Positions 9,474 through 15,244 of a stretch of DNA of 38,867 nt are shown piece by piece; within the stretch, counting starts at the first letter, position 1; every line of letters starts with the position of its first letter. The stretch is from a virus. The notes under the pieces were generated by a model that searched no databases, was not told the DNA's origin, and worked only from the letters and a program-made list of their open reading frames with translations. The stretch is taken from IMG/VR virus record IMGVR_UViG_3300033979_000256, positions 1-38,867 of that record. The stretch is one strand, 5' to 3'. The translations under genes and the position numbers were made by a program.

Positions 9474-9502
9474 TTGCAAAACACAAAAAAGTATGATATA
9501 AT
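9474..9502 (+). promoter_or_regulatory. Sigma-70-type promoter of structured RNA C
   Basis: TTGCAA (9474-9479), 17 bp, TATAAT (9497-9502). Start site expected near 9509. Confidence 0.75.
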
Positions 9503-9508
9503 ATTGTT

Positions 9509-9690
9509 ATATCTAAAGAGATTAAACAATTGGTGATTAAACCCTAGTTTAAAACAACTGCACCAAGCTGTGCAGGACCAGGCGACGTTTCGCGAGGGCC
9601 CCTGAGTACCAGCAAGCCTAGTGCAGTTGTTGTAAGAACTAGAGGTGTTAATCACTACCAACTTTATAAGTTGGAGAATTGTTTTCTTTT
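9509..9690 (+). ncRNA. Candidate structured RNA C
   Basis: A promoter-driven, ORF-free stretch with nested helices: AAACAATT (9524-9531) with AATTGTTT (9677-9684); TGATTAA (9534-9540) with TTAATCA (9648-9654); CTAGTT (9544-9549) with AACTAG (9637-9642); and a perfect 10-bp helix ACAACTGCAC (9554-9563) with GTGCAGTTGT (9621-9630). A GC-rich core inside includes the hairpin GCGA-CGTT-TCGC. A 7-bp hairpin CCAACTT/AAGTTGG (9658-9674) and a T-rich tract end it. No known RNA family fits; there is no hammerhead or group I core. It could be a trans-acting RNA or the leader of the 9740 gene. Confidence 0.6.
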
Positions 9691-10526: not shown

Positions 10527-10838
10527 ATGAAATATACTAAAGAAATCACTGACCGTCTAGTGCAAAGATACCGAGAAGGTGTCCCAGTAGAGGAGCTTGC
10601 CCAAGAGCTCCAGGTGCCAACTCGTAGCATAATTGCCAAGCTCAGCTCCCTCGAGGTGTACCAGAAAAAACAGTACCTAAACAAACGCGGTGAGGTCCCG
10701 GTTAAGAAGTCAGAATACATCGAACGAATCGCCCTACTGCTCAACATGAACCTTGAACTGCTCGAAAGTCTGGAAAAGGTCAATAAAGGTGTGCTTGAGG
10801 TCATAGAACGGGAATTAAGTAGGAATAACCGACCCTAA
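10527..10838 (+). CDS. Small HTH DNA-binding protein, paralogue 1 (plus strand)
   Basis: 103 residues. The N-terminal ~45 residues (YTKEITDRLVQRYREGVPVE then ELAQELQVPTRSIIAKLSS and EVY) form a Myb/GcrA-like helix-turn-helix; the C-terminal half is helical and ends ...LESLEKVNKGVLEVIERE. The same layout occurs at 11479, 12458 and 16575. This copy is the most diverged and uses CTA leucines like the phage core. Likely a sequence-specific transcription factor, by analogy only. Its stop codon lies in the first copy of the GACCCTAAACCG motif. Confidence 0.72.
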   Translation: MKYTKEITDRLVQRYREGVPVEELAQELQVPTRSIIAKLSSLEVYQKKQYLNKRGEVPVKKSEYIERIALLLNMNLELLESLEKVNKGVLEVIERELSRNNRP

Positions 10839-10954: not shown

Positions 10955-10993
10955 TTGACACATATAGCTTTAGCACTGTATAATATTGGCGCC
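10955..10993 (+). promoter_or_regulatory. Promoter P1 of the TTGACA-N18-TAWAAT-GGCGCC family
   Basis: TTGACA (10955-10960), 18 bp, TATAAT (10979-10984), GGCGCC (10988-10993). Unlike P2-P6 it lacks the palindrome across the -10. It fires toward the hammerhead/RNA B locus, which is transcribed from the other strand. Confidence 0.8.
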
Positions 10994-11002
10994 CTACCGC
11001 AA

Positions 11003-11035
11003 ATAAAAAAGCCCACCAGTTTGCACTGGTGGGCT
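11003..11035 (-). terminator. Intrinsic terminator of the hammerhead-containing transcript
   Basis: Perfect 10-bp hairpin GCCCACCAGT-TTGC-ACTGGTGGGC. On the minus strand it is followed by TTTTTTATTTG. It lies about 10 bases downstream of the ribozyme cleavage site. Confidence 0.88.
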
Positions 11036-11038
11036 CGG

Positions 11039-11123
11039 TTCCTGACCCTAAACCGTAGTCTGCTGGGCATGGGGCACCAGTTTTCGGGTTTGGGTTTCGC
11101 TCTTGGTGAGCTCATCAGAGGAA
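11039..11123 (-). ncRNA. Hammerhead ribozyme, type I
   Basis: Minus strand, 5' to 3': stem I TTCCT (11123-11119), core CTGATGA (11118-11112), stem II GCTC with loop ACCAA and GAGC (11111-11099), GAAA (11098-11095), stem III CCCAAACC (11094-11087), a 31-nt loop with a CTGG/CCAG hairpin, stem III GGTTTAGGG (11054-11046, one bulged A), the GTC cleavage triplet with C17 at 11044, then stem I AGGAA (11043-11039). Every invariant core base is present, including the G10.1-C11.1 and A15.1-U16.1 pairs. Cleavage is predicted between 11044 and 11043. Hammerheads are known from some phage genomes; this one sits between a structured RNA and a terminator. Confidence 0.93.
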
Positions 11124-11171
11124 TAGGGGGAAAAGCAGCAACGATGGTTGAGATTGCCGCGGTTTAGGGTC
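11044..11171. repeat. Inverted pair of the 12-bp GACCCTAAACCG motif (copies c and d)
   Basis: Copy c, GACCCTAAACCG at 11044-11055, is on the minus strand the stem III substrate strand of the hammerhead. Copy d, CGGTTTAGGGTC at 11160-11171, is its exact inverse. In the minus-strand RNA d can form 12 pairs with c, in competition with the ribozyme fold. Confidence 0.75.
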
Positions 11172-11416
11172 TGGTTGATTTCCGTGAGTGCGTTCCCCAG
11201 AATTTACTGCTTCCAGGTACTGAGACATTAGGGACCGATCAGAGCCAGACATCATAAAACTACAGACCAATATTACCATCTGCTAGCAGTAACTAACTGC
11301 TGCCTTTCTGAAGGGATAGTTTGGGAATCAAACTTGAGTCTCGTACTTAGGTTATCGACACTTGTAGTTGGCTAAGTGGACTCTGTTTGTGCGCGTTATC
11401 GCCCTTCCCAAACTAT
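11044..11416 (-). ncRNA. Structured RNA B, 3' end defined by hammerhead cleavage
   Basis: The transcript starts near 11416 and would be cut at 11044, about 373 nt. At the 5' end ATAGTTTGGGAA (minus strand, 11416-11405) pairs with TTCCCAAACTAT (11327-11316), enclosing GAGTC/GACTC (11383-11379 with 11340-11336) and ACTTAG/CTAAGT (11377-11372 with 11350-11345). Further on is the hairpin GCAGT/ACTGC. No ORF fits. The gap from 10839 to 11478 is otherwise filled only by terminators, promoters and the repeat motif. I recognise no family. Self-cleavage could set a defined 3' end with a cyclic phosphate (known hammerhead chemistry). Confidence 0.7.
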
Positions 11417-11478: not shown

Positions 11479-11787
11479 TCAGGCTTTGAGCACTTCGACC
11501 AGGCGGGTCAAAACATCCTGATTTGCTTTTTCCAGCGATTCAAACTGTTCACTATTCCGATCACACACCTTAGCAATGCGCTCGACCAGCTCAGCTTTGG
11601 TAACCCGGGCCGCCTGTGTAGTCCGGGTCTTCGCTACGTACACACCCTCGCGCGAAAGTTTAGCAACCACACTACGCACACTTTTACCAACCTGCTCAGC
11701 CAGTTGCTCAACACTTACACCTTGCTGATACTTCTGGACCAGTTCCTGAACTTGTTCAGGGGTATAGTTCATTACTTTGTCAGTCAT
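11479..11787 (-). CDS. Small HTH DNA-binding protein, paralogue 2
   Basis: 102 residues from the ATG at 11787, preceded by GGAGAA. The first ~50 residues hold the shared HTH signature YTPEQVQELVQKYQQGVSVE, then IAxx-type helix (QLAEQVGKSVRSVVAKL) and SREGVY. The C-terminal half is helical and acidic, ending in a leucine/valine-rich helix. It resembles the GcrA/Myb-type wing-less HTH pattern (Y/W...G.S...IA..LG.S.R...KL.R.G). It has its own promoter (11816-11844). Probable regulator; target unknown. Confidence 0.75.
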   Translation of the reverse strand: MTDKVMNYTPEQVQELVQKYQQGVSVEQLAEQVGKSVRSVVAKLSREGVYVAKTRTTQAARVTKAELVERIAKVCDRNSEQFESLEKANQDVLTRLVEVLKA

Positions 11788-12294: not shown

Positions 12295-12313
12295 GTTACA
12301 AATTGTTACAATT
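12295..12313. promoter_or_regulatory. 10-bp-period direct repeat upstream of P2
   Basis: GTTACAAATTGTTACAATT: two GTTACAA half-sites 10 bp apart, ending exactly 6 bp before the P2 -35. This tandem layout resembles OmpR/PhoB-type response regulator sites. Copies precede P4 and P6 at the same distance. Confidence 0.55.
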
Positions 12314-12977: not shown

Positions 12978-13022
12978 GTGTGATGTTATAACATCACACG
13001 GGTGTGATGTTATAACATCACA
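12978..13022. repeat. Two copies of the palindrome TGTGATGTTATAACATCACA
   Basis: Perfect palindromes at 12978-12999 and 13002-13022, two bases apart, immediately after P3. The core ATGTTATAACAT recurs in the 58-bp palindrome after P4 and near 17345. It looks like a dimeric repressor operator; a Zur-type metalloregulator site is one weak resemblance. Confidence 0.8.
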
Positions 13023-14564: not shown

Positions 14565-14622
14565 TGTGATGTTATAACATAACATTGTTTCATGTGAAAC
14601 AATGTTATGTTATAACATCACA
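14565..14622. repeat. 58-bp palindrome with a parS-like centre
   Basis: Two perfect 28-base arms around the dinucleotide TG at 14593-14594. The outer arms hold TGTGATGTTATAACATAACA. The centre TGTTTCATGTGAAACA (14586-14601) matches the ParB site parS (TGTTTCACGTGAAACA) at 15 of 16 bases. The element sits 7 bp after GGCGCC of P4. Confidence 0.85.
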
Positions 14623-14657: not shown

Positions 14658-14771
14658 TCGTCCTTCAACCCATTGCCACATTACGGGTTCCTCCTCAAGG
14701 TATTCGCGCGCCCTGTATCGAGAGGTTGTTACCAGATGACCGACCAGTAGGAAGCAAAAGGCAGTTTTCAT
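14655..14771 (-). CDS. 38-residue protein of unknown function
   Basis: The ATG at 14771 overlaps the HAD gene stop as TAATG, and GGGA is upstream, so translational coupling is likely. The sequence has a hydrophobic start (MKTAFCFLLVGHLVTTSRY) followed by a charged segment with four acidic residues in a row. It might be a short anchored or exported peptide. No family recognised. Confidence 0.52.
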   Translation of the reverse strand: MKTAFCFLLVGHLVTTSRYRAREYLEEEPVMWQWVEGR

Positions 14772-15244
14772 TAGTGTCCCTGCTTGCTTGGAATGTAAAC
14801 TCCACGGATACCGAAACGGTCGCAGACTGCTTTAAGGTAGTCCACATTATCCTCATAAAAAACAACATCGTCAGTCTGGAAGTTGACAAGGTTGAAAAAC
14901 TTTGCTAGTCCACCGATTTTGAGGGTTCGACCTGATTGCGTATCGCCCTGTTTACGCGAAACGATATAATCGGGTTCGCCTAGAGTGTCGCGGATAAATT
15001 CTCGATCCGGTTCGCCTAGTACGCGCGCAGTCGCAATTATGGTATACGTTTCAGGATCGTCAAGGTCTTGCCAGTATTCTTCGACCAGCGGTAAGAGTGA
15101 ATCGTCAAGCGCGCGGTATTCATTCTCGCGCCAGTAGTCTAGGTCGATACGCTCGCCACGCTCATCGATGACGGTCCGGTAACGATGCAGCGAGCATACA
15201 ATGGTTCCGTCCATGTCGTAAATTCTAACGCGCTTGATTGCCAT
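14771..15244 (-). CDS. HAD-superfamily phosphatase
   Basis: 157 residues with DMDGT (nucleophile D10, acid/base D12), a motif II threonine in IIATAR near residue 72, a lysine near 109 and the motif IV acid in YEDN (D132). No large cap domain, so likely acts on an exposed or polymeric substrate such as a nucleic-acid 3' end or nucleotide. It overlaps the HExxH gene upstream (TAATG) and the 38-codon gene downstream, forming a three-gene operon. Confidence 0.8.
   Translation of the reverse strand: MAIKRVRIYDMDGTIVCSLHRYRTVIDERGERIDLDYWRENEYRALDDSLLPLVEEYWQDLDDPETYTIIATARVLGEPDREFIRDTLGEPDYIVSRKQGDTQSGRTLKIGGLAKFFNLVNFQTDDVVFYEDNVDYLKAVCDRFGIRGVYIPSKQGH

Follow-up and report, generated by a model that had tools for sequence, protein, structure and literature searches.

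What does a self-cleaving ribozyme do inside the noncoding RNA of a phage? The question is raised by a virus record from IMG/VR of 38,867 bases (hereafter the window, meaning the whole stretch of DNA that was analysed), for which a preliminary description, made from the letters of the sequence, had proposed a type I hammerhead whose cut gives an RNA a defined 3' end. Type I hammerheads of phages and prophages often flank genes or short gene blocks, with several per prophage, and three tandem arrangements were reported to be active in vitro, the precise functions of bacterial and phage hammerheads being called unclear in the same source (PMC3088659). Ribozymes are also described as enriched near the genes of Mu-like phages (PMC10085705).

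A type I hammerhead in the window

Read on the minus strand, the window holds every part of a type I hammerhead, and the core bases, three stems, bulged A, coordinates and cut position of the preliminary description proved right. The parts, with the basis of each, are as follows:

11039-11123, minus: type I hammerhead ribozyme (sequence, held-out model and covariation in relatives)
11123-11119 / 11043-11039, minus: stem I, 5 bp, open (sequence)
11118-11112, minus: core CUGAUGA, C3 to A9 (sequence; CUGA(U/C)GA in relatives)
11111-11108 / 11102-11099, minus: stem II, 4 bp, loop ACCAA (sequence and covariation)
11095-11098, minus: GAA at 11098-11096, plus A15.1 at 11095 (sequence; GAAA in model hits)
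11095-11087 / 11054-11045, minus: stem III, 9 bp, with bulged A11049 and an apical hairpin (sequence)
A11095-U11045, minus: the A15.1-U16.1 pair, U16.1 being 11045 (sequence)
11044, minus: C17, with the cleavage triplet GUC (sequence)
between 11044 and 11043, minus: predicted hammerhead cut site (sequence)

The window hammerhead carries CUGANGA and GAAA, the A15.1-U16.1 pair and a base other than G at position 17, and chance as its explanation is excluded. A covariance model (R3), trained on 37 relatives with the window clade left out, finds it as the sole match in the window at an E-value of 10 or better (40.9 bits, E = 3.4e-10). This search is the sole held-out test; model R1 was trained on descriptor-found sequences, and its training set, being among the loci searched, matches by construction. 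A relaxed descriptor gives the window hammerhead a score of 18, and 200 dinucleotide shuffles of the window, searched on both strands, yielded 11 matches scoring 13-17 and none scoring 18. The same descriptor matched 120 of 158 loci, a count that includes other phages and several loci of one contig, and found 3 sites in 3.0 million bases of reversed sequence. With an unbulged descriptor (threshold 11 on the plus strand, 12 on the minus strand), type I hammerheads were found on the expected strand in 50 of the 80 loci L003-L082, none on the opposite strand of these loci, where the threshold was one higher, and no site in 1.6 million strand-bases of reversed sequence; two type III matches (L042, L053) were set aside.

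The curated Rfam models, to which the preliminary description had pointed as a check, lent no support: a scan of the whole window listed no hammerhead at an E-value of 5, and in a short stretch no hammerhead model passed, the best, Hammerhead_HH9, reaching 17.2 bits where the gathering score is 52. The Rfam hammerhead matches of L084 and L093, which hold several clear type I hammerheads each, were likewise all below threshold, which suggests that the low scores reflect the sensitivity of the models rather than the fold. The observation of a type I hammerhead is confirmed.

The phage and the locus

The terminase encoded in the window shares no more than about 50% identity with its counterparts in Vibrio phages of 112-121 kb, which we take to be T5-like, and its tail-completion protein lies just over the Pfam cut-off for T5 p143 (27.9 against 27). 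The longest close relatives, the contigs L004, L005 and L007, measure about 98 kb each; a comparison over 2 kb showed no difference between L004 and the window, and 99.8% identity for L005. The RNA with the hammerhead lies downstream of one gene and faces another, in the order HTH1 > RNA < HTH2:

11479-11787, minus: HTH1, gene for a small DNA-binding protein, 5' of the RNA (phrog_323 D5-like regulator, E = 9.4e-8)
10527-10838, plus: HTH2, gene convergent with the RNA on its 3' side (same families, weakly matched; phrog_323, E = 3.4e-4)

The HTH1 protein was used to fetch 80 IMG/VR loci, the best 80 of 593, and the hammerhead model matched in 62 of them, L017 and L020 being cut off by a contig end. 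Some of the 18 loci without a match end just past the HTH gene, and others carry a different paralogue. Where the pair of HTH genes lies within 2.6 kb, the hammerhead is present in 47 of 50 loci, the exceptions being L060, L064 and L068. A pattern scan for the conserved 5' module described below added 11 further hammerhead contigs (L101, L111, L118, L120, L123, L125, L129, L133, L137, L138 and L156), which brings the total to 73 besides the window, many of them near-duplicates, with 51 distinct ribozyme sequences in 111 loci by descriptor. Contigs were counted by comparing locus names by eye, and the locus counts of 111 above and of 45 and 29 of 111 below include several loci of one contig.

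Among cultured phages, a sequence search with the window RNA gave no match, and with the RNA of L072 only the tRNA part matched, in the best 20 of 26 records. Fourteen matches came from scanning bacterial genomes with a pattern, and the 5'-module model backs only the one in L168 (16 bits, E = 0.067); as the others lack model support, we name no host. On the minus strand at 14771-15244, the window encodes a polynucleotide-kinase-like protein (phrog_415, E = 7.8e-8; no Pfam match) that could heal 5'-hydroxyl ends. End-healing RtcB was found in none of seven records, and RNA ligase in one of the seven, below the cut-off.

Conservation and covariation of the ribozyme

The core varies little. CUGA(U/C)GA is present in all 51 unique descriptor-found relatives (111 loci, several per contig pooled), a count that holds partly by construction because the descriptor itself requires CTGANGA, along with GAA(A) and a base other than G at position 17. 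Among the 73 covariance-model matches, GAAA is present in all and CUGA(U/C)GA in 71, the remaining two (L123 and L156) being misplaced by the model and reading CUGAAGA by eye. Of the 73, 64 carry the cleavage triplet GUC and nine carry GUA, so position 17 is C or A and never G, which the descriptor behind the model also required. The loss of core bases in close relatives, named by the preliminary description as a refutation, was not seen in the 73 model matches inspected.

The stems change freely in sequence and keep their pairing. In alignment A2, which holds 41 of the 51 unique hammerheads, 24 of 28 base pairs have changed on both sides, and stems I, II and III each contain such pairs; the window stands for L004 there, and L003, L007, L032, L051, L053, L054, L062, L065, L111 and L118 were dropped as near-duplicates, truncated, misaligned or with a long stem II. 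Double-change cells numbered 195 against 74.1 in shuffles, a value reached by none of 500 shuffles, which leave relatedness among the sequences in place; with the window clade removed, the figures are 177 against 70.8. Sliding the partners by one column lowers the paired fraction from 85.5 to 42.4%. Further pair types are a weak measure here, the observed value being reached by 29 of 500 shuffles. Columns 4, 25 and 26, examined for a possible contact between loop II and stem I, are A in at least 90% of A2 sequences. Most relatives have a longer stem III with further covarying helices. Alignment A4 leaves out the window, L010, L011 and L045. Within the window clade, 8 of the 85 hammerhead columns vary among six contigs, and 123 of 618 segments of 85 nt in the region vary as little; by eye, L010 carries a compensatory change in the apical hairpin. 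Selection on the RNA structure of this type I hammerhead is well supported by these comparisons. As a variant, L053, L065/L066, L123 and L156 have a long stem II whose loop holds the word GACCCTAAA (GACCCTAAATTG in L156), with an extra U after A9 in some.

Two alternatives bear on what is being conserved. A fold that serves purely as a structural three-way junction, with no catalysis, would accommodate the extra U after A9 seen in three descriptor-found sequences. However, the catalytic bases and position 17 persist through deep divergence (in part as a requirement of the descriptor) where the stems change freely, and we regard such a purely structural role as quite improbable. Conservation of a DNA-binding word with no RNA at all is extremely improbable. 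The word in question, GACCCTAARYYG, does lie in the 3' strand of stem III and is over-represented (59 occurrences against one in a backward control, in six records of which two share the window's locus), yet it covers one strand of one stem, and the covariation outside it, in stems I and II and in the apical helices of stem III, contradicts this reading. In the window, GACCCTAARYYG occurs at eight sites, for example 10831, 10922, 11044, 11160 and 17443, and is perhaps an operator of the HTH proteins.

A large modular RNA in relatives

In most relatives the hammerhead lies midway in a larger RNA with conserved parts on both sides. From the 5' module to the terminator, this RNA spans 592-1442 nt (median 948) in the 45 measurable loci, repeats of one contig included, values that rest on a loose terminator pattern. 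The hammerhead is preceded by an upstream module, GGGUGACAGCGG...CGUCUUAAUUGUGG...GAGCCACAGCCC (the UUAAU module), whose model matched 49 of 81 sources, one of them weakly, the window not being among them. In alignment A3, which holds 39 of the 46 unique 5' modules, compensatory changes occupy 41 cells against 12.5 in shuffles (reached by none of 500) and six pairs changed on both sides against 3.6 (7 of 500 shuffles), the result for further pair types being not significant (133 of 500). The 5' module has structure of its own. A second, weaker copy follows the first inside the RNA in L018, L045, L068, L118 and L120. On the other side of the cut, conserved blocks extend over several hundred nucleotides in other phages (25 loci aligned; among the blocks listed), with a terminator 3' of them by the loose pattern. 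An Rfam scan of 16 loci gave no convincing match other than tRNA.

Seven contigs that carry the 5' module (L060, L064, L068, L121, L148, L155 and L157) have no hammerhead match at an E-value of 10, which counts against both the proposal of the preliminary description and the explanation preferred below.

Could the cut instead serve the 5' end of the downstream part, the window's ribozyme being a relic? We think this rather unlikely. Sequence is conserved 3' of the cut in the aligned loci (among the blocks listed), as this explanation would expect, and in L111, L129, L133 and L138, which share one sequence, and in L118 a promoter-like TATAAT lies 38 or 33 nt before the core by eye, so that the ribozyme would head the transcript and its cut would give the downstream RNA a 5' end. 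The window clade, however, which lacks the 3' part, keeps the whole ribozyme, including the compensatory change seen by eye in L010.

In 22 contigs the RNA contains a tRNA-Glu(UUC), the only tRNA that ARAGORN found in the 1.5 kb searched at the module loci. Among the 18 tRNA contigs with a descriptor-found hammerhead, the tRNA ends 5-9 nt before the core CUGAUGA in 11, and 78, 100 or 273 nt before it in the other seven. One contig, 3300043436_004120 (L014 and L146), holds the large RNA twice, in differing versions that both include a hammerhead and a tRNA-Glu. Predicted tmRNA genes also occur within the tRNA arrays of related phages (L118, 7674-8028; L138, 5526-5941).

This proximity recalls theta ribozymes, which are HDV-like, self-cleaving and tRNA-adjacent, and cut at most 5 nt from the tRNA 3' end (PMC10879173). 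Both settings place a self-cleaving phage ribozyme fold beside a tRNA gene; unlike theta ribozymes, the fold here is a hammerhead and the cut lies beyond the ribozyme. A part in tRNA processing, after the manner of the theta ribozymes in gut phages, is distinctly unlikely: the presence of tRNA-Glu(UUC) in 22 contigs and its short spacing in 11 of 18 speak for it, but the cut falls on the side of the ribozyme away from the tRNA, a tRNA lies at most 900 nt upstream in only 29 of 111 ribozyme loci, with none in that distance in the window, and L068 has the tRNA without the ribozyme.

The apparently reduced RNA of the window

The window, L003-L006 and L008-L010 lack both the UUAAU 5' module and the 3' part and keep the ribozyme. 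L007 and L011 look intermediate, with the 5' module present and about 75 and 300 nt, respectively, from the cut to the terminator. We read the window clade as carrying a reduced form of the larger RNA, and infer the direction of gain or loss. Its predicted features are:

11003-11416, minus: predicted host transcript, 414 nt, reduced version (fold z-score -4.16)
11428-11423, minus: -10 box TATAAT (by eye; the promoter scan did not list it)
11316-11416, minus: 5' structured module closed by AUAGUUUGGGAA/UUCCCAAACUAU (fold; layout compared by eye)
11160-11171, minus: copy of GACCCUAAACCG, which can pair with the substrate strand 11055-11044 (possible competing fold)
11036-11009, minus: terminator-like hairpin (consensus scan)
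10955-10984, plus: perfect sigma-70 consensus promoter, 12/12, with an 18-nt spacer, antisense into the RNA (consensus scan)

By eye, the layout of the module at 11316-11416 resembles that of a small RNA found just before the large one in relatives, and 7 of the first 120 columns vary among six contigs of the window clade. A terminator-like hairpin does lie past the cut, as had been proposed; the gap is 7 nt by the scan, or 9 nt if the first G-C pair is at 11034. The promoter at 10955-10984 would make an antisense RNA, and similar sequence is present in relatives. Open reading frames over the window RNA were set aside because indels within the clade, by eye, are not in threes, and so was a match to BjrC68 (Rfam, E = 0.001), which corresponds to the terminator together with a short local hairpin and falls below the gathering score.

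Elsewhere in the window, 9474-9665 on the plus strand comprises a promoter-like site and, after it, a stretch that looks noncoding and structured, its inverted arms of 21 nt (9549-9569/9615-9635) being 86% complementary. Perfect inverted repeats occur at 14565-14622 (arms of 28 nt) and 12979-13022 (arms of 21 nt), each just after a promoter-like repeated cassette (14496 and 12909), a third copy of which lies at 12295.

Folding alone leaves the activity of the window hammerhead unsettled, and the modelled fold is ambiguous. With the hammerhead enforced, the transcript folds at -133.4 kcal/mol against a minimum of -133.6, and in the full transcript the pairs of stem I have a mean probability of 0.21 and those of stem III of 0.55; the rival pairing of the GACCCUAAACCG copy has a mean probability of 0.92 in the segment 11180-11039 and of 0.16 in the full transcript. 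A timed switch, in which this upstream copy blocks the substrate strand until it is itself sequestered, would draw on that strong pairing in the short segment, on full-transcript folds that lie only 0.2 kcal/mol apart, and on the invariance of GACCCTAAA before the ribozyme in eight aligned contigs. We nevertheless consider it unlikely, since most of the other relatives inspected have no such copy just before the ribozyme by eye. Moreover, the GACCCUAAACCG copy is part of a repeated DNA word, so no role in the RNA is needed to account for it, and a switch is possible without being required.

Discussion

The explanation that we prefer, and consider probable as a whole, is that the hammerhead is an active cutter built into a modular phage noncoding RNA. 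It draws together what computation shows: the ribozyme fold with its compensatory changes, a locus that stays fixed, a host RNA made of modules, a tRNA embedded in it and the pattern of presence and absence across contigs. The ribozyme would fold as the RNA is made and cut once. By hammerhead chemistry, the upstream piece would end in a 2',3'-cyclic phosphate and the downstream piece would begin with a 5'-hydroxyl; in the window, the former would be on C11044 and the latter on A11043. In most phages, the cut would split an RNA of about 0.6-1.4 kb into a 3' part and a 5' part, the latter made up of one or two UUAAU modules and, in some phages, tRNA-Glu, and in the window it would remove the terminator hairpin and leave an RNA of about 370 nt with an exact 3' end, which should be a poor target for 3' exonucleases.

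The earlier proposal that the cut gives the RNA a defined 3' end is thus partly supported: it fits the window clade, where the terminator lies 7-9 nt past the cut, and does not carry over to L011, with about 300 nt in between, to phages with long conserved 3' sequence or to the five contigs with a promoter-like site before the ribozyme. Comparison across contigs suggests that the common consequence of the cut is most likely the separation of pieces of a larger RNA, not the making of one particular end.

The hammerhead class and phage hammerheads are known; what appears to be new is the setting in a large, modular and sometimes tRNA-bearing phage RNA. The core, the three stems, the open stem I and the noncoding phage location are shared with the hammerheads of PMC3088659. 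The present hammerheads differ in occurring singly, each embedded in a large, structured noncoding RNA, and in having, in most relatives, a stem III domain that is long and covaries. The kind described in PMC3088659, with several per phage, was found as well: the stretch fetched from each of the other phages L083, L084, L086, L088, L090, L093, L094, L097, L098 and L099 contains between one and five small type I hammerheads, L083, L084, L090 and L093 being among those of the several-per-phage kind. VIPR arrays, phage RNAs of alternating GGY/NN motifs with interspersed hammerheads (PMC13142463, a preprint), likewise place hammerheads in a phage noncoding RNA locus; assignment to them was rejected on the RNA motif, no run of four GGYNN being present in the window or the 23 loci checked.

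GOLLD and ROOL are large ornate phage RNAs that form cages and are often found near tRNA islands; GOLLD has a variable 5' region and a conserved 3' region, sometimes with tRNAs in the linker (PMC12286853). The relatives, in 22 contigs and not in the window, resemble GOLLD in carrying a tRNA in the linker between a 5' and a 3' region. Unlike GOLLD, they have a hammerhead between the two parts, and the main text of PMC12286853 contains no word with the stem 'cleav'. The GOLLD model (RF02032) was over its cut-off in none of six records (best 3.9 bits against 150), and neither GOLLD nor ROOL matched in the Rfam scans of the window (all families) and of 16 loci. A more tentative version of our explanation, possible though on balance doubtful, is a new class of large modular tRNA-bearing RNA with a GOLLD-like assembly, in which the hammerhead would release a tRNA-Glu cargo or separate the parts at a set time and the window would be a streamlined form that keeps only the cut. 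A search of the open-access literature, which takes in few subscription papers, found, among the papers listed, none on a hammerhead inside such a large phage RNA, and this family of large RNAs with a built-in hammerhead, from uncultured T5-like phages, is apparently undescribed, a provisional statement.

Beside the 73 contigs that keep a hammerhead at a recurring place, the comparison offers natural experiments, namely RNAs without the 3' part (the window clade), with the ribozyme near the apparent start of a transcript (L111 and L118), without the ribozyme (seven contigs) and with or without a tRNA, so the function of the hammerhead can be tested by comparison. The known large structured RNAs of phages are few, GOLLD and ROOL being examples, and this family, for which the scans found no entry in Rfam 15, may be a further one. 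These phages seem to make an RNA that dismantles itself.
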